A model generated the notes under the pieces. The model had not been told where the DNA came from. It saw only the letters and a list, made by a program, of their open reading frames with translations, and did no database searches. The position numbers and the translations under genes are program-made. A stretch of 64,000 nt of DNA. Origin: Photobacterium pectinilyticum (GTDB lineage Bacteria > Pseudomonadota > Gammaproteobacteria > Enterobacterales > Vibrionaceae). The DNA is taken from positions 12,727-76,726 of the forward strand of contig NZ_JANEYT010000012.1 in the NCBI RefSeq assembly GCF_024357955.1, given 5' to 3'. The first letter of the stretch is position 1. Every line of letters starts with the position of its first letter. Positions 2,801 to 28,515 of the stretch are shown piece by piece.

Positions 2801-4357
2801 ATGAAAACCCTCAAGACCAAGTTGGCCGTGGCCTTAATGGCTGCCGGCCTGAGCTTTAGTGCCGCCGCAGCTGACATCAAAGTCGCCTATGATGCTGATC
2901 CAGTATCACTTGATCCGCATGAGCAATTATCTGGTGGCACTCTGCAGCTATCGCACATGGTCTTCGACCCATTGGTGCGCTTTAAGCAAGATCTCGACTT
3001 TGAGCCACGCTTGGCAACGAAATGGGAGCGTGTTGATGATGACACTTTCCGTTTTCACCTACGTCAAGGCGTGAAGTTCCACTCAGGTAATACCATGACG
3101 GCAGATGATGTCGTGTGGACTTTCCAGCGTCTGAAAGATTCACCTGATTTCAAAGCGATTTTCGACCCTTTCTCTGCGATGGAAAAAGTGGATGATTACA
3201 CGGTTGATCTAAAAACAACGGGTCCATACCCGCTTGTTCTACAAACAGCGACATACATCTTCCCAATGGACAGCAAGTTCTATACGGGCACCACAGAAGA
3301 CGGTCGTGATAAAGCTGCGATTGTTAAGCACGGTAACTCGTTTGCATCGACGAACATGTCTGGCACCGGCCCATTTATCGTGACGAGTCGTGAGCAAGGC
3401 GTGAAAGTAGAATTTGAACGTTTTGATGGTTACTGGGATACCGCCTCTCCAGGCAACGTTGACACTATCACTTTGCAGCCTATCAAAGAGAATGCCACTC
3501 GTGTTGCAGCACTGCTTTCTGGTGGTGTCGATATGATTGCTCCTGTCGCACCTAATGATCACAAACGTGTTGAATCTTCGAAGGACTTGGATTTGGTGAC
3601 CCTACCAGGCACACGTCTTATCTCGTTCCACATGAACCAAAATAGCAACGAAGCGCTGAAAGATGTCCGTGTGCGTCAGGCGATTGTTCACGCGATCAAC
3701 AACGACGGTATCGTACAGCGTATCATGCGAGGCTTCGCGACAACGGCCTCTCAGCAGAGTCCGGTTGGTTACGCTGGCCACAATGAAGCGTTAGATGTCC
3801 GTTTTGATGTTGCTAAAGCGAAAGAGTTAATGAAAGAAGCGGGCTATGAAGATGGCTTCACTTTAACCATGATGGCACCAAACAATCGTTACGTGAACGA
3901 TGACAAGATCGCCCAAGCTGCCGCCCAGATGCTTTCTAAAATCGGGATCAAAGTTGACCTTAAAACGTTGCCAAAAGCGCAATACTGGCCGGAATTTGAT
4001 GTCTGTGCGGCTGACATGATGATGATCGGTTGGCACGCAGATACAGAAGATTCAGCGAACTTTACCGAGTTCCTAACAATGACGCGTAATGAAGATACTG
4101 GTCGCGGGCAATACAACTGTGGCTATTACTCAAACGCCGAGGTGGATGGTTTGATTGAGGCATCAAACGTTGAAACTGATCCAACCAAACGTTCTGCTCA
4201 GCTGAAGAAAGTTGAAGAAATTCTGTATAACGATGCGGCATACGTTCCGTTGCATTGGCAAAACCTAGCGTGGGCTGCAAAGTCTAACGTGAAGATCGCG
4301 CCGATTGTGAACGCAATGAACTTCCCGTACTTCGGTGATCTGGTAGTTGAAGAGTAA
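2801..4357 (+). CDS. Periplasmic peptide-binding protein of ABC transporter (SBP family 5)
   Basis: A 518-residue extracytoplasmic solute receptor of the OppA/DppA family. It has a Sec signal peptide with Lys at 3, 6 and 8, a hydrophobic core and probable cleavage after the Ala run near residue 24. The mature start DIKVAYDADPVSLDPHE is the conserved N-terminus of the family. A strong AAGGAG precedes the ATG. It sits between the ATPase and permease genes and is bounded by two hairpins (2716-2737 and 4372-4400), an arrangement that usually lets the receptor be made in excess over the membrane subunits. The ligand is probably a short peptide, but this is inference. Confidence 0.92.
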   Translation: MKTLKTKLAVALMAAGLSFSAAAADIKVAYDADPVSLDPHEQLSGGTLQLSHMVFDPLVRFKQDLDFEPRLATKWERVDDDTFRFHLRQGVKFHSGNTMTADDVVWTFQRLKDSPDFKAIFDPFSAMEKVDDYTVDLKTTGPYPLVLQTATYIFPMDSKFYTGTTEDGRDKAAIVKHGNSFASTNMSGTGPFIVTSREQGVKVEFERFDGYWDTASPGNVDTITLQPIKENATRVAALLSGGVDMIAPVAPNDHKRVESSKDLDLVTLPGTRLISFHMNQNSNEALKDVRVRQAIVHAINNDGIVQRIMRGFATTASQQSPVGYAGHNEALDVRFDVAKAKELMKEAGYEDGFTLTMMAPNNRYVNDDKIAQAAAQMLSKIGIKVDLKTLPKAQYWPEFDVCAADMMMIGWHADTEDSANFTEFLTMTRNEDTGRGQYNCGYYSNAEVDGLIEASNVETDPTKRSAQLKKVEEILYNDAAYVPLHWQNLAWAAKSNVKIAPIVNAMNFPYFGDLVVEE

Positions 4358-22528: not shown

Positions 22529-23251
22529 ATGCAGTTTTACCGACCTTTTTCCGCGCCCAAGGCACTGACCTTTGATCTTGACGATACCCTCTATGATAAC
22601 CGACCGGTGATACGCCGGGCTGAGCAGTCAATGCATGATTGGTTGGCGGTTAACCACCCGCGGTTGAAAGGGATAGGGGGAGCTGGTTGGCTGCAATTGA
22701 AAAAGCGTCTTGCCAAAGCCGATCCCATGCTGCGCCATAATGTGACTCAATGGCGGTTTGAATTGCTCAAGATTGGCTTTATGCAGCTGGGCTATTCCCT
22801 TTCAGCTGCGGAACAGGCCGCTGGCGAAGGGGTCGCGGTGGTTCTTGAGGTCAGAAATCAAGTGGATGTCCCTGCAGAAACGCACCGGGTATTGGCGATG
22901 CTCAAGCAACAGTTGCCGCTAGTGGCGATTACCAATGGCAATGTCGATGCGGAAAAAATCGGGCTCGCGCAGTATTTTGATGGGGTGCTGATGGCGGGCC
23001 GTGATGGATTAGCCAAACCTGAGCCCGATTTGTTTGTCAGCGCGGCGGTAGATCTAGGCATCCCCCCGAGTGATATTCTCCATATTGGCGATCACTTGGT
23101 GACCGATGTCGGTGGCGCCAAGCAAAACGGTTTCAAGGCCTGCTGGTTCAATGATCAGCTCCGTGTGCTGAGTCGTGAGCCACGCGCCAAGTGGCTACCG
23201 GATGTCGAAATCAGCCAGCTGTCACAGCTGTTGGCATTGGTGTCTGAGTGA
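22529..23251 (+). CDS. yigB: HAD-family phosphatase YigB
   Basis: A 240-residue HAD hydrolase. Motif I is FDLDDTLYDN (nucleophile Asp17), motif II is ITNGN, and motifs III/IV are KPEPDLF and HIGDHLVTDVGGA. The E. coli homologue dephosphorylates FMN and the riboflavin intermediate 5-amino-6-(5-phosphoribitylamino)uracil; substrate use here is inferred. It follows xerC by 28 bp with a weak ribosome site and ends the operon that starts with lysA. Confidence 0.92.
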   Translation: MQFYRPFSAPKALTFDLDDTLYDNRPVIRRAEQSMHDWLAVNHPRLKGIGGAGWLQLKKRLAKADPMLRHNVTQWRFELLKIGFMQLGYSLSAAEQAAGEGVAVVLEVRNQVDVPAETHRVLAMLKQQLPLVAITNGNVDAEKIGLAQYFDGVLMAGRDGLAKPEPDLFVSAAVDLGIPPSDILHIGDHLVTDVGGAKQNGFKACWFNDQLRVLSREPRAKWLPDVEISQLSQLLALVSE

Positions 23252-23286
23252 GGCAAACCCACATATAGCCGGTTATTTGAGCGATC

Positions 23287-23314
23287 AAAAAAGGGACAGC
23301 ATGCTGTCCCTTTT
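23287..23314. terminator. Bidirectional terminator between yigB and the bufferin operon
   Basis: The palindrome GGGACAGCATGCTGTCCC (23293-23310) flanked by six A and four T. It serves yigB on the plus strand and the DoxX gene on the minus strand. Confidence 0.9.
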
Positions 23315-23345
23315 CTGTCTTTATCTGTTTCGCCCTGAAATAGGT

Positions 23346-23801
23346 TTACTGCAATAAAGACTGCTTCGGCTTGCTGCTGATGAGATGGTCGACAGAAATC
23401 ATCCCGGCGCCCCAGAACACGTTGATCAGCATCATCATGCCCCATAACTGGTGGTCGAAGAAGCCCTTCTCCCACAGCAGCGGGTAGGACACTACCGCAA
23501 TGATATTGAATACGAACAGTGCCAGTGCCATTGGTCGGGTGAACAAGCCGAGTGCCAAGAAAACGGGCAGGATCAGCTCGGCTGCCGTGCCCGAATAGGC
23601 GGCGAATTGCCAGGGGAACAGGGGCACTTGGTATTCATACTCGAACAGGTAAAGGGTGCTGTCCCAACTGCTGTATTTCACCATCCCGGACTTGAAAAAT
23701 ACCCATGCCACCCACAGTCGGGTGAACAGCAGGAACAGAGGGATCAGGGGCTCGGTGATCCGCTGGGCCGTGATATCGATTTGTTTGAGAAAATTCAGCA
23801 T
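23346..23801 (-). CDS. DoxX-family membrane protein of bufferin operon
   Basis: A 151-residue protein with four transmembrane helices. The DoxX fold is seen in LWVAWVFFKSGMVKYSSW (first helix and following loop), GTAAELILPVFLALGLFTRP (second) and two later helices (FVFNIIAVVSYP, MMMLINVFWGAG). ATG 23801 lies inside the bufC stop (ATGCTGA) with GGGAG upstream; a GTG two codons earlier is too close to that ribosome site. It is the last gene of the operon. DoxX proteins often accompany MNIO-peptide operons. A role in redox or electron delivery in the membrane is inference. Confidence 0.85.
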   Translation of the reverse strand: MLNFLKQIDITAQRITEPLIPLFLLFTRLWVAWVFFKSGMVKYSSWDSTLYLFEYEYQVPLFPWQFAAYSGTAAELILPVFLALGLFTRPMALALFVFNIIAVVSYPLLWEKGFFDHQLWGMMMLINVFWGAGMISVDHLISSKPKQSLLQ

Positions 23802-24583
23802 GCACACTCTCCCTCAGGCAAGCCGTGGATACGGGTGAAAAGTTGTTGTTGGATCAGCTCGCCTAGAATGGCCAGCATGGTACCGTCAGCGTCGCCCAAT
23901 GCACGACCTTGCTGGCACAGGTGTAACAAAGCTGTCGCCGTCGTGGTTGTTGCCATCACCAGCATACCTTGTGAGCGGTGCTGGATAATGACCGACTCCG
24001 GCTGATTCATATCAATCGGCTCAACCTGATCATCGGTGATCATCTGCCACAGGCTGGCGACAGGGTAATGGGCATCGAAGCTGTAGATAGGCTCAGCAAC
24101 TTCCATTACCAACTGAGGCAGGTTGTCCTCGGTGATCAGTGTTAGTTGCTCGAACGGAAAATCTGTACTGACCGGAGCATGCTGGCTAGCTCGGTCGACA
24201 AGCCACTCCAACTGGGCCAGTTCGGCTAGATAAGGAACCGCCTCAATTACTGACGGCTGGCCGGAAATTGTATCGGCAAAGCCGTCGCCGTAATCGGTCA
24301 CATTGCCTTCCCCTAGCGGGTAGGCCAGTACATGCTGGCGGGCGAGTTGGGCGAAACACTCGTCACCGACCACGGCCTTGCAGCATGGATAGGAGGCTTC
24401 CAGCACTTCCGACAGGCTGATAATAAAGTTGTTACGGTAGATTTGTATCAGTTGTTCCGGGGCAAACTGACCGGTCGTAACGGTTTCATTAGCAGGGCTT
24501 GGCCGGTAGTGCAGCGCTTCGGCGAAATCCTGTTGTAGTTTATGTAGTTGGTGCGGCTTTTTAGGCTGCGGAGATCCCATCAT
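23795..24583 (-). CDS. bufC: DUF2063 partner protein of MNIO enzyme (BufC-like)
   Basis: A 262-residue protein. Residues 10-105 form the DUF2063 domain: QLHKLQQDFAEALHY, QLIQIYRNNFIISLSEVLEA and YPCCKAVVGDECFAQLARQH, with LAYPLGEGNVTDYGDGF just after. In related pathways (MbnC, BufC) such a protein binds the precursor peptide and hands it to the DUF692 enzyme. It overlaps bufB by 23 bp and the DoxX gene by seven. The start at 24583 is chosen because GGAGGAGG lies just upstream; the adjacent ATG 24580 is equally possible. Confidence 0.85.
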   Translation of the reverse strand: MMGSPQPKKPHQLHKLQQDFAEALHYRPSPANETVTTGQFAPEQLIQIYRNNFIISLSEVLEASYPCCKAVVGDECFAQLARQHVLAYPLGEGNVTDYGDGFADTISGQPSVIEAVPYLAELAQLEWLVDRASQHAPVSTDFPFEQLTLITEDNLPQLVMEVAEPIYSFDAHYPVASLWQMITDDQVEPIDMNQPESVIIQHRSQGMLVMATTTTATALLHLCQQGRALGDADGTMLAILGELIQQQLFTRIHGLPEGECAC

Positions 24584-25430
24584 TGGCCTCCTCCGCAATA
24601 ATGTATCGCGCCTTGTCGGCTTCCCCAAGTAGCACGTCGAGCGCAGGAATATCGAGATCCCATTCAATCAGCGTTGGCACCCCGCCAAGCGCGGTGAAGT
24701 GCTGGCGTACCCACTGGCGATAGAGTTGCCATACTGGTTCGCTAACGGGTTTGCTGTGGGTGTCTATCCATATTTCGCCTTGTTCGAACTGTTTGACGGT
24801 AAAGCCCGCCAGGTGGATCTCTTTAACCGTGCGAGGGTCAATAGCATCCAGATAGGTTTGGCAATCGAAGCCGTGGTTGAAACTGCTGACGTAGATGTTG
24901 TTGAGGTCGAGCAGCAAACCGCATCCGGTGCGTTGTTGGACAGCTCGCAGAAATTCCCATTCCGGAATCGTGGAGTGGTTGAAACTCAGGTAACTGGATG
25001 GGTTCTCGACCAAGAGCTGACGGCCGAGCGTGTCTTGTACTTGTTCAACCTTGTGGCAGAAGTGGGCCAGTGCCTCCTCGGTATAGGGCAGGGGCAACAG
25101 ATCATTGAAGTACTGACCGTCAACCGAACTCCAGCTGAGGTGGTCGGATACCGCAATCGGGTCTATTTCATCCACGAGCTGCTTGAGCCGGGATAGGTGC
25201 TGTTTATCCAGCGCATCGGCAGAGCCGAGAGACATCCCGACCCCATGGCAGCTGATCGGGTAGTGGTTGGCAATGTCCCTGAGTTGCTGGCGGGCCGTCG
25301 AGTGAGGCGTAAAAAAATTCTCGCTGTGGATTTCCAGCCAGCTGATATCTGGCTTGTCGGCGAGAAATTGATGGATGTGGGGGGAGCGAAGCCCCACCCC
25401 TACCATCTTGTCAGGAGACAACCTGCTCAA
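24561..25430 (-). CDS. bufB: MNIO (DUF692) multinuclear iron oxidase, BufB-like
   Basis: A 289-residue TIM-barrel enzyme of the MNIO family (relatives of MbnB and TglH), iron enzymes that oxidise cysteines in peptides. Metal-ligand motifs are visible in order: LEIHSENFF, CHGVGMSLG, VSDHLSW, VENPSSYLSF, LLLDLNNIYVSSFNHG, EIHLAGF, DTHSKPV and IEWDLDIP. The start is TTG 25430, directly after the precursor stop, with AGAGG inside the precursor's last codons; ATG 25406 is an alternative. Likely role: convert core cysteines of the two precursor peptides to thiooxazole-type, copper-binding groups. Confidence 0.9.
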   Translation of the reverse strand: MSRLSPDKMVGVGLRSPHIHQFLADKPDISWLEIHSENFFTPHSTARQQLRDIANHYPISCHGVGMSLGSADALDKQHLSRLKQLVDEIDPIAVSDHLSWSSVDGQYFNDLLPLPYTEEALAHFCHKVEQVQDTLGRQLLVENPSSYLSFNHSTIPEWEFLRAVQQRTGCGLLLDLNNIYVSSFNHGFDCQTYLDAIDPRTVKEIHLAGFTVKQFEQGEIWIDTHSKPVSEPVWQLYRQWVRQHFTALGGVPTLIEWDLDIPALDVLLGEADKARYIIAEEANDGISAA

Positions 25431-25691
25431 TTACTCGGCCTCTTTAGAACTACCGGCCAAGCGATCGCAAAGGCCTTTAGGCACCATGACGAAAGCATCT
25501 TTCTGGCCATCGGTTTTCGAGGTGCCGGCACAAGAGCTGGTTTTGGTCGCACAGTCATTTTTACCGGCTTTGACCACCCCGTAGCATTTTTCCTTTTCTG
25601 CCGCGACGGCCACAGAAGGTGTTAGTGCCGTACCCGCAAGGGCAAGTAAACCAGAAACCGCAGTAGCAACAGCAAGATTAGACTTTTTCAT
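25431..25691 (-). CDS. bufA: Bufferin-type precursor peptide, copy 2
   Basis: An 86-residue DUF2282-like peptide. It has a Sec signal (MKKSNLAVATAVSGLLALAG and on to VAVAA) with cleavage near residue 31, then a core with Cys36, Cys47, Cys54 and Cys75 (EKCYG, NDCAT, SSCAG, GLCDR). From KEKCYG to RLAG it is identical in protein sequence to copy 1. The tail SSKEAE differs. It directly abuts bufB. In the bufferin family such exported peptides have their central cysteines modified by the MNIO and bind copper in the periplasm; that is family knowledge, not shown here. Confidence 0.9.
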   Translation of the reverse strand: MKKSNLAVATAVSGLLALAGTALTPSVAVAAEKEKCYGVVKAGKNDCATKTSSCAGTSKTDGQKDAFVMVPKGLCDRLAGSSKEAE

Positions 25692-25738
25692 AATGATTCC
25701 TTCATTTGAGTGTTATCAAGTTGGTAGGTGATTAAAGG

Positions 25739-26005
25739 TTATGATGAGCTGGTTGAGCCGCCAGCAAGACGATCACACAAGCCTTTAGGAACCATCACGA
25801 ATGCATCTTTCTGGCCGTCGGTTTTTGAGGTACCGGCACAAGAGCTGGTTTTGGTGGCACAGTCATTCTTGCCTGCCTTGACTACGCCGTAGCACTTTTC
25901 TTTTTCCTCAGCAGCGACCGCGGCGGTGGTGGTCATGGCGGTTCCGGCTAGTGCAATCAGGCCTGTTACTGCAGTCGCGAGTGCAATGTTGGTGGTCTTT
26001 TTCAT
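25739..26005 (-). CDS. bufA: Bufferin-type precursor peptide, copy 1
   Basis: An 88-residue paralogue heading the operon. The signal peptide ([20 protein letters not shown], ending TAAVAA) cleaves near residue 32. Cysteines are at 38, 49, 56 and 77. The 48-residue core is identical to copy 2 although about 21 of 48 codons differ synonymously. The tail is GGSTSSS. The AGAGGA ribosome site is strong. It lies 47 bp upstream of copy 2, and an inverted repeat sits just ahead at 26032-26049. Confidence 0.9.
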
Positions 26006-26031
26006 GTTTAATCCTCTTAAATACGCTGACT

Positions 26032-26049
26032 GTTGCAGGAAAATGCAAC
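26032..26049. promoter_or_regulatory. Inverted repeat before bufA (possible operator)
   Basis: GTTGCA-GGAAAA-TGCAAC: six-base perfect arms with a six-base spacer, 27 bp upstream of the first precursor ATG. The size and spacing suit a dimeric regulator, or it could form a hairpin in the leader. No sigma or metal-regulator consensus could be assigned. Confidence 0.4.
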
Positions 26050-26318
26050 GTTTCCTTTTGGGTTAACTGACACCTTGTTGGTGCTCTCGGTACATAAGAA
26101 AGGGCGAGTTAGGAATAACTTTCATGCTTTCTTAATTTTTTTAACTTTTCGTTAACTTTGTGTAGTTCCAAGCATAGAACAAAACAATCTGGCAAGAGGT
26201 TGATAAGGTGAAATTTTTGTCACGCTTTATTGATGGGTTTGTCATCTGTTGGCTGGGTGGTGTGGCAGAGGGGAGGTTTCTCGCATCACGGTGGGCTTTG
26301 TGGTTATAATCATCACCA

Positions 26319-26334
26319 TTGTATAAATAACCAG
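26319..26334. promoter_or_regulatory. LexA-like SOS box before uvrD
   Basis: TTGT-ATAAATAA-CCAG is close to the E. coli uvrD SOS box (CTGTATATATACCCAG, from memory), including its off-consensus CCAG end. It overlaps a likely -10 box TATAAA (26322-26327) with TTGTGG at 26298 as -35. Control of uvrD by LexA is inferred. Confidence 0.6.
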
Positions 26335-26343
26335 TAGAGAGCG

Positions 26344-28515
26344 ATGGACGTTTCACTTCTGTTAGATGGCCTAAATGACAAGCAACGCGAGGCGGTGGCG
26401 GCACCGTTGGGTAACCACCTGGTTTTGGCCGGCGCCGGGAGTGGTAAAACCCGGGTTTTGGTCCATCGCATTGCCTGGTTGATGACGATAGAGCAAGCCT
26501 CGCCTTACTCCATCATGTCGGTAACCTTTACCAACAAGGCAGCCGCTGAGATGCGCGGCCGGATCAATGAGTTGATGCACGGTTCGTCGGCAGGTATGTG
26601 GAACGGCACCTTCCATGGCCTGTGTCACCGCATGCTGCGCGCCCACTATTTGGATGCCAACTTGCCGGAAGATTTCAATATCCTCGATTCTGACGATCAG
26701 ATGCGTTTGATGCGCCGTTTAATCAAGGCCCAGAATCTTGACGAGAAGCAGTGGCCGGCCCGCCAGGCAGTGTGGTATGTCAATGGCAAGAAAGACGAAG
26801 GTCTGCGTCCACAGCACATTGACTCGTTCAATGACCCGGTCGAGCAAACCTGGCTGCGTCTTTATACTGCCTATCAGGAAGCATGTGATCGTGCTGGTTT
26901 GGTCGATTTCGCCGAGTTGCTATTGCGTGCCTTCGAGTTGCTGCAGCGTAGCAAGCATATCCGTGAACACTATCAGGCTCGCTTTAAGCACATTCTGGTG
27001 GATGAATTCCAGGATACCAACAACATCCAGTTTGCCTGGTTGCGCCTGATGGCCGGTCCGGACTGTAATGTGATGATTGTGGGTGATGATGACCAGTCAA
27101 TTTACGGCTGGCGTGGCGCCAAGGTGGAGAACATCCAGCGCTTCCTCAATGATTTCAAGGGGGCTAGTTCGATCTTCCTTGAGCAAAACTACCGTTCGAC
27201 CGCTAACATCCTGAAAGCGGCCAATGGCTTGATCGCCAACAACAACGAGCGAATGGGCAAGAATCTGTGGACCGATGGTGCTGAAGGTGAGCTGATCTCT
27301 ATTTATTCGGCCTTCAACGAGCTCGATGAAGCCCGCTTTGTGGTTGGCAAAATCAAAGAGCTGCGCGATCAGGGCGGAGCCTTGAGCGATGCAGCCATGC
27401 TTTATCGTAGCAATGCCCAGTCGCGGGTATTGGAAGAAGCGTTGATCCAGTCGGGAATGCCGTATCGGATTTATGGCGGTATGCGTTTCTTCGAGCGTCA
27501 GGAAATCAAAGATTCCCTGTCGTATTTGCGACTGATTGCCAACCGTAATGATGATGCCTCGTTTGAGCGGGTAGTGAATACCCCGACCCGTGGCTTGGGC
27601 GATCGCACACTGGAAACAATCCGCATGACAGCCCGTGACCGCGGAGCGACCATGTGGCAAGCCAGTGTTGCCTTGCTGGAAGAGCAAGTGCTGGCTGGCC
27701 GTGCAGCCAATTCGCTGCGCCGCTTTATCGAACTGGTCAATGCTCTGGAAGATGATACCCGCGAGCTGCCGCTGTATCAGCAAACCGATGAAGTGATCCG
27801 TAATTCTGGCCTACGTGCGATGTACGAGCAGGAAAAAGGCGAGAAAGCCCAGGCACGAATCGAAAACCTTGAGGAACTGGTCACCGCAACCCGCCAGTTC
27901 GAGATCCCGGAAGAAGCCGAGGAGATGAGCCCGTTGTCGGCGTTCTTGTCCCATGCTGCGCTGGAAGCGGGCGAAGGTCAGGCTGATGAGTTCGATGATG
28001 CTGTCCAGCTGATGACCATGCACAGTGCCAAGGGGTTGGAATTCCCGGTGGTATTTATGGTTGGCGTCGAAGAAGGGATGTTCCCGAGTTCGCGCACTAC
28101 CGAGGAAGTGGGCCGCTTGGAAGAGGAGCGCCGCTTGTGCTACGTGGGTATGACCCGTGCTATGCAGAAGCTCTACATTTCCTATGCGGAGATGCGTCGT
28201 TTGTACGGCAAGGACAACTTCCATAAACCGTCGCGTTTTATCCGCGAGATCCCGGAAGAGTTTATCGAAGAAGTACGGATGAAGGCCAAGGTGTCACGAC
28301 CTGCCAGCAGCGGTCGCTTCAGCCAGACCCAGGTCAACGATAACTTTAACCAAACGGGTTATACCCTTGGTCAGCGGGTCAAGCACCCGAAATTTGGTGA
28401 GGGGACCATCATCAACTTTGAGGGAAGCGGTGCCCAGAGCCGGGTACAGGTAGCCTTCAATGGTGAGGGCATCAAATGGTTGGTGACCCAATATGCCAAG
28501 CTTGAGCCGATGTAA
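26344..28515 (+). CDS. uvrD: DNA helicase II
   Basis: A 723-residue superfamily 1A 3'-5' helicase for nucleotide excision and mismatch repair. Walker A is AGAGSGKT near residue 30, motif II is VDEFQDTN, motif III is GDDDQSIYGWRGA, motif IV is EQNYRST, and motif V/VI are TMHSAKGLEFP and YVGMTRAMQKL. It matches E. coli UvrD along the full length, including the C-terminal Tudor-like KFGEGTI segment that binds RNA polymerase. A LexA-like box lies in its promoter. Confidence 0.97.
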   Translation: MDVSLLLDGLNDKQREAVAAPLGNHLVLAGAGSGKTRVLVHRIAWLMTIEQASPYSIMSVTFTNKAAAEMRGRINELMHGSSAGMWNGTFHGLCHRMLRAHYLDANLPEDFNILDSDDQMRLMRRLIKAQNLDEKQWPARQAVWYVNGKKDEGLRPQHIDSFNDPVEQTWLRLYTAYQEACDRAGLVDFAELLLRAFELLQRSKHIREHYQARFKHILVDEFQDTNNIQFAWLRLMAGPDCNVMIVGDDDQSIYGWRGAKVENIQRFLNDFKGASSIFLEQNYRSTANILKAANGLIANNNERMGKNLWTDGAEGELISIYSAFNELDEARFVVGKIKELRDQGGALSDAAMLYRSNAQSRVLEEALIQSGMPYRIYGGMRFFERQEIKDSLSYLRLIANRNDDASFERVVNTPTRGLGDRTLETIRMTARDRGATMWQASVALLEEQVLAGRAANSLRRFIELVNALEDDTRELPLYQQTDEVIRNSGLRAMYEQEKGEKAQARIENLEELVTATRQFEIPEEAEEMSPLSAFLSHAALEAGEGQADEFDDAVQLMTMHSAKGLEFPVVFMVGVEEGMFPSSRTTEEVGRLEEERRLCYVGMTRAMQKLYISYAEMRRLYGKDNFHKPSRFIREIPEEFIEEVRMKAKVSRPASSGRFSQTQVNDNFNQTGYTLGQRVKHPKFGEGTIINFEGSGAQSRVQVAFNGEGIKWLVTQYAKLEPM

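Follow-up and report, generated by a model that had tools for sequence, protein, structure and literature searches.

What is made by a run of five genes in which two small cysteine-containing proteins are followed by an MNIO enzyme, a DUF2063 protein and a DoxX-family membrane protein, and what controls it? We address this question for such a run (bufA1, bufA2, bufB, bufC and doxX; Table 1) in a 64,000-nucleotide (nt) stretch of contig NZ_JANEYT010000012.1 of Photobacterium pectinilyticum, hereafter the window, where a first-pass annotation had proposed a bufferin-type operon with two tandem precursors. Comparison with related loci supports that interpretation at the level of sequence: the genes very probably form a Buf1-type bufferin (captophorin) biosynthetic operon that would make two modified copper-binding periplasmic peptides, which, by analogy with studied systems, is also how genes of this combination are usually interpreted. 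The operon is an ordinary, well-conserved one in marine bacteria, and bufferin clusters are of a kind already described; what we add is a conserved location, a constrained duplicate of the precursor gene and a promoter-like element, and it is this conserved control element that looks new. Gene content, order, families, residue conservation and the identity of the precursor cores are read directly from the loci.

A probable operon of the Buf1 type

Buf1 proteins belong to DUF2282, and the core of their clusters consists of a precursor, an MNIO, a DUF2063 protein and DoxX (PMC12452194); Vibrionales are among the orders enriched in such clusters (PMC13097082). To call this gene set little known would be too strong, the four-gene core and tandem precursors both being already published (PMC12452194). 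A literature search limited to library listings found no case in Photobacterium. In Caulobacter, CC3254-CC3257 comprise the same four families in the same order, with a four-cysteine DUF2282 precursor as here (PMC3511200). The GIG operon (Legionella lpg2105-2108 and Cupriavidus) likewise unites DoxX, DUF2063, DUF692 and DUF2282 (PMC5413113). The described operon has one precursor gene and in Legionella lies on an integrative conjugative element, whereas the present operon has two precursors and lies beside uvrD in a conserved neighborhood.

Our comparison set of 81 similarity-selected loci consists of the window and the best 80 of 153 confirmed BufB relatives, among which Photobacterium lutimaris and P. 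rosenbergii have the closest BufB proteins from named species (91% each). A wider sample comprises 36 genomes of one GTDB genus (35 searched relatives and the window's own genome, which shares their genus) and 24 other genomes of the order. As first proposed, the two cysteine peptides, the MNIO, the DUF2063 protein and DoxX are encoded on one strand by abutting or overlapping genes; the assignments to DUF2282, PF05114, PF09836 and DoxX all hold above the Pfam gathering scores, and the single-strand order A-B-C-DoxX is kept in all 81 loci.

Of the five proteins, BufB alone passes an NCBIfam cut-off, that of MNIO_BufB (386.5 against 310). Its residues E33, E37, H62, H97, E142, D175, N177, N178, H206, D223, H225, E256 and D258 are invariant across the 81 loci; in an alignment through 3BWW, D223 and H225 correspond to HvfB D242 and H244, and N177 or N178 to N175, and the remaining invariant residues are, by motif, putative iron ligands or the catalytic acid. 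HvfB N175, D242 and H244 are each essential, their alanine variants being inactive (PMC13419390), and the invariance of their counterparts in 81/81 loci answers the worry, raised in the first-pass annotation, that the enzyme might lack the MNIO metal ligands. DUF2282-type MNIOs are reported to lose conservation at Arg16 and Phe250 (PMC13097082). Where FonB, of the Lys-Cys type, has R15-R16 and D249-F250, BufB has R15-S16 and D258-L259 (correspondence mapped by motif), and across the 81 loci R15 is invariant and positions 16 and 259 vary.

PF09836 is matched in all 49 BufC proteins scanned, the window's included. A sequence search of the PDB with BufC found no relative (a single, unrelated match at E 0.81). 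An AlphaFold2 model of BufC was built (49-row alignment, mean predicted local distance difference test score 88.7, predicted template-modeling score 0.82). At E ≤ 0.001 this model matches three PDB chains only, 8hi7_A and 8hci_A, both from TglHI entries, and 3dee (NGO1945), with moderate TM-scores of 0.51-0.57 by query length; chain A of 8hi7 and 8hci is, we infer, the partner TglI.

The precursors are uniform in their cysteines. All 95 precursors of the 81 loci have exactly four, with a spacing of 10-6-20 in 94; a sequence search found no PDB relative. The leaders of BufA1 and BufA2 look Sec-type by eye, and this appearance, together with the family description, suggests that the precursors may be secreted. 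The spacing exception is the precursor near position 3297 of locus L082, from Vibrio aestivus, in whose assembly the usual leader and the context of the first cysteine are missing, perhaps through a frameshift or sequencing error.

For Buf1, PMC12452194 (Fig. 3 legend) describes modification of the two central cysteines and a disulphide between the outer pair. On the model of such relatives, from which the modification chemistry, export and copper binding are carried over, both precursors would carry Sec-type leaders. BufB, guided by BufC, would act in the cytoplasm and oxidize the central cysteines (49 and 56 in BufA1, 47 and 54 in BufA2) to 5-thiooxazoles, and after export a disulphide would join the outer pair. 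The mature peptides would bind excess copper in the periplasm, and DoxX may have a function in redox chemistry or at the membrane. Having a second precursor gene would raise the dose, both copies encoding the same core.

Several observations weigh against this assignment. The NCBIfam BufA2 model gives the two precursors only 29.8 and 29.0 bits (cut-off 60), the HvfC model gives BufC 30.1 (cut-off 142) and the HvfX model gives DoxX 48.3 (cut-off 80); D96, which adjoins the invariant H97 of BufB, is E in 2 of the 81 loci; and the role in copper handling is drawn from other genera, where dichromate (Caulobacter) and gold (Legionella) also feature. Legionella lpg2105-2108 responds to both gold and copper (PMC5413113), and the Caulobacter operons of the bufferin kind are sigma-F-dependent in dichromate stress (PMC3511200).

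Table 1. Features of the bufferin operon and its borders, in window coordinates.
Feature	Position	Strand	Description
bufA1	25739-26005	minus	DUF2282 (Buf1) precursor, 88 aa; Cys38, 49, 56, 77; PF10048 84.1 bits, cut-off 22.4
bufA2	25431-25691	minus	second DUF2282 precursor, 86 aa; Cys36, 47, 54, 75; PF10048 81.8 bits
bufB	24561-25430	minus	MNIO (DUF692), putative bufferin maturase, 289 aa; PF05114 360.5 bits; NF050167 386.5 vs 310
bufC	23795-24583	minus	DUF2063 (PME type 1) partner, 262 aa from ATG; PF09836 70.8 bits
doxX	23346-23801	minus	DoxX-family membrane protein, 151 aa; PF07681 61.2 bits, cut-off 23.6
Promoter-like element TGAAA-N17-CTTTCT	26096-26124	minus	first base 119 nt before bufA1 ATG
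Palindromic terminator-like hairpin	23289-23314	unassigned	between HAD gene (+) and doxX (-)

A duplicated precursor with a constrained core

Tandem precursor copies occur in 14 of the 81 loci, all of them in Photobacterium, and in the genus survey, which overlaps that set, two copies were found in 12 of 36 genomes, one in 23 and none in one (G008). When 32 loci were placed on a quick tree from concatenated sequences, with several low supports, the two-copy loci formed one clade, with the single-copy loci L038 and L042 within it and L045 beside it; the nesting of L038 and L042 suggests losses. It thus appears that one Photobacterium clade doubled its precursor and held the mature core nearly fixed.

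The two copies in the window differ in the leader and in the C-terminal tail (GSTSSS in BufA1, SSKEAE in BufA2). Over the 48-residue core they show no amino-acid difference, while 23 of 144 bases differ, in 21 codons; a simple count, which ignores codon bias and multi-step codons, puts the chance of zero amino-acid change at about 1e-15 if differences fell randomly over sites. Across the 14 two-copy loci the cores differ by 0 to 4 non-synonymous and 12 to 21 synonymous codons, and both copies have four cysteines in all 14. Because the cores are identical in protein despite 23 nucleotide differences, the duplication looks old and each copy under constraint, and the simplest reading, taken from this pattern only, is that they give equal products with an effect on dose. 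Gene conversion is disfavored for the window: on another quick tree its A1 and A2 each cluster with their own counterparts in L033, L034 and L043, which favors old copies under constraint. In L044, L047 and L048 A1 groups with A2 (support 0.29), and independent duplication or conversion is possible there, as judged from this second tree.

A conserved promoter-like element

Upstream of bufA, within 300 bp, the pattern TGAAA-N17-C[AT][AT]TC[CT] is found in 64 of the 81 loci, where first-order Markov sequences of the same regions lead one to expect a mean of 0.15; since the pattern was derived from the same, related loci, this count measures conservation and is not an independent discovery. The other 17 loci have no fit, near versions being visible by eye in some (e.g., L057). 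Three other patterns tried for the second box fitted 4, 0 and 1 of the 81 loci. The element is probably a promoter, and by its TGAAA box, as in other extracytoplasmic function (ECF) sigma systems, an ECF-like one. It may also be read as a sigma-70 promoter (TTGAAA, TATCCT); the base preceding TGAAA is not conserved, and a sigma-70 scan gave no site at the element. By eye it fits neither the Vibrio ChrR-sigmaE motif TGATC-N18-CGTAT (PMC5241685), nor the sigma-F motif GTAACC-N16-CGAA (PMC3511200; GTAACC was not searched genome-wide), nor the Neisseria sigma-E motif GTMAGBWTT and CGTCTAAH (PMC2893595).

Caulobacter CC3254-3257 are under sigma-F (PMC3511200), whereas the scanned neighbors of the window operon include no sigma factor or NrsF and the upstream element differs; as a sigma factor is missing from some Buf1 clusters too, this absence is no sharp difference. 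Among 40 genomes, one of them the window's own, NrsF (PF06532) exceeded its cut-off in 0; G019 gave one sub-threshold match and the own genome none. For bufferin clusters that lack the sigma-F/NrsF pair, the element may offer a handle on how they are switched on.

In the window's own genome a stricter form of the element has one site, against none in the control. With one mismatch allowed it has 5 sites, while the reversed control has 7, so that no wider regulon is visible there. The strict form was sought in 13 Photobacterium genomes and has 14 sites, spread over 12 genomes (control, 2); 12 of these sites lie at bufA, and neither of the remaining two has an evident related target. Possible regulators were sought with two matrices (from the 64 bufA sites and from their Photobacterium subset of 21) at the 8 of 13 Sigma70_r4_2 matches of the own genome that exceed the cut-off; no clear site accompanies any of these eight sigma genes. 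The highest scores, 10.7 at L115 (first matrix) and 8.9 at L116 (second matrix), compare with 32.1 and 41.8 at the bufA1 site; they exceed the best off-targets in the window (6.1 and 4.3, first and second matrix), and on that ground we regard L115 and L116 as weak leads. L116 is a ChrR-type locus whose weak site lies well upstream of the sigma gene. At L115 (contig C135) an ECF sigma gene and a DUF3379 gene precede a presumably FadL-like gene with a weak site upstream.

In Vibrio, by contrast with the reversed control, the Vibrio form of the element (at most 2 mismatches) is frequent: 51 sites in 19 of 20 genomes, against 16 in the control. Nineteen of the 51 are bufA sites and 32 are not. We inspected 17 regions picked by eye (15 of these 32, and the two from Photobacterium), of which 14 fall in four gene groups; in the other 3 the site precedes nothing related. 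The site precedes one membrane protein gene in four regions (L177, L178, L179, L193); another membrane protein gene followed by a conserved protein in five (L182-L185, L188); a small K/Q-rich frame of about 28 residues ending in VPLSLT or VPMSLT in L181, L186, L187 and L189; and an MsrA-MsrB fusion in L180 (PMSR and SelR by Pfam). Pfam scans of examples found a VTT domain in L177, L193 and L184 and no match for the conserved protein after the membrane gene; other members of the membrane and K/Q groups were assigned by sequence likeness.

From these sites one may tentatively propose, as a possibility less likely than not, that Vibrionaceae bufferins fall under an undescribed ECF-like sigma regulon (promoter TGAAA-N17-C[AT][AT]TC[CT], no sigma-F/NrsF) in which they would be joined, in Vibrio, with MsrA-MsrB repair and VTT-domain membrane proteins as a stress unit parallel to the Neisseria sigma-E regulon.

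Alternative readings

The same biosynthesis could serve another end: the peptides might act in oxidative or general envelope stress, with the operon in an envelope-stress regulon together with methionine sulphoxide repair. The recurrence of the Vibrio form before membrane protein genes, the MsrA-MsrB fusion and the K/Q-rich frame points this way, as does Neisseria, where sigma-E controls msrAB as well as an operon that includes a DoxX-like gene (PMC2893595) and NGO1945 of that cluster is a DUF2063 protein (PMC3511200). The additional Vibrio and Photobacterium regions were, however, chosen by eye, and the VTT homolog and three Msr matches in the window's own genome are without the element. Moreover, the meningococcal sigma-E targets are described as unchanged by peroxide, diamide and singlet oxygen (PMC2893595), the Caulobacter msrA homologs as unresponsive to sigma-F (PMC3511200), and studied relatives bind copper; we consider a stress role of this kind unlikely, and prefer copper-binding bufferins.

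Within a bufferin operon the two precursors could still be unequal, one serving as the main substrate while the other decays or is put to a different use, as their different leaders and tails and the apparent losses in L038 and L042 would allow. A decaying copy fits poorly with a core that has kept every residue across 23 nucleotide differences in the window, and with mostly synonymous change and four cysteines in both copies across the two-copy loci, and we judge inequality improbable beside two equivalent bufferin precursors. A third alternative is a system of the HvfA/oxazolin type or a methanobactin-like one. The MNIO superfamily is shared and the HvfB-family model scores 237.5 on BufB, but this lies below its cut-off of 360, whereas BufB passes the BufB cut-off, and the methanobactin MbnB model reaches 80.1 against 325. 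HvfABC (oxazolin) and fontiphorin do resemble the window operon in pairing an MNIO with a DUF2063 partner, making 5-thiooxazoles and being linked to copper (PMC13097082, PMC13419390); unlike it, they have precursors with EGKCG repeats and an MNIO of another subgroup by score. Neither window precursor contains the EGKCG motif, and we give this alternative hardly any credence.

Neighborhood and distribution

On one side of the operon lie DUF484 and xerC-like genes followed by a HAD hydrolase gene, which borders the operon; on the other side come uvrD and then ggt. In 79 of the 81 loci uvrD adjoins the operon, pointing away from bufA; the two loci without a detected uvrD are L077, which ends at a contig end, and L107, an Aeromonas. 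The HAD gene was detected in 30 of the 81 loci, so that this side of the neighborhood is less widely shared. Such a location suggests that the bufferin operon is a long-settled chromosomal part beside uvrD in Photobacterium and Vibrio. The family is also mobile, given that DUF2282 is patchy in the order (absent from 1 of 36 genus genomes and from 15 of the 24 others) and that 358 records of a plasmid collection hold MNIO relatives, at below 60% identity. The window's own genome has two DUF2282 genes and one MNIO gene.

Gene junctions and borders

The sole intergenic gap in the five-gene run is the 47 nt between bufA1 and bufA2. The starts of bufB and bufC were assigned by ribosome-site-like sequence: the TTG of bufB, preceded by AGAGG, directly follows the TAA stop of bufA2, and the ATG of bufC, preceded by GGAGGAGG, lies inside the 3' end of bufB with an overlap of 23 nt, while bufC and doxX overlap by 7 nt. 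Beyond doxX, the hairpin was called with an 11-pair stem on the plus strand only, in a region with 5 terminator-like sites against 3.3 expected; read by eye, it is self-complementary with T runs on both strands and is likely a terminator shared by the HAD gene and doxX. An Rfam scan of positions 23000-26600 found no family at the gathering score, and the bufA1 leader RNA folds mildly better than its shuffles (z -2.0, 7 of 200 shuffles at least as good).

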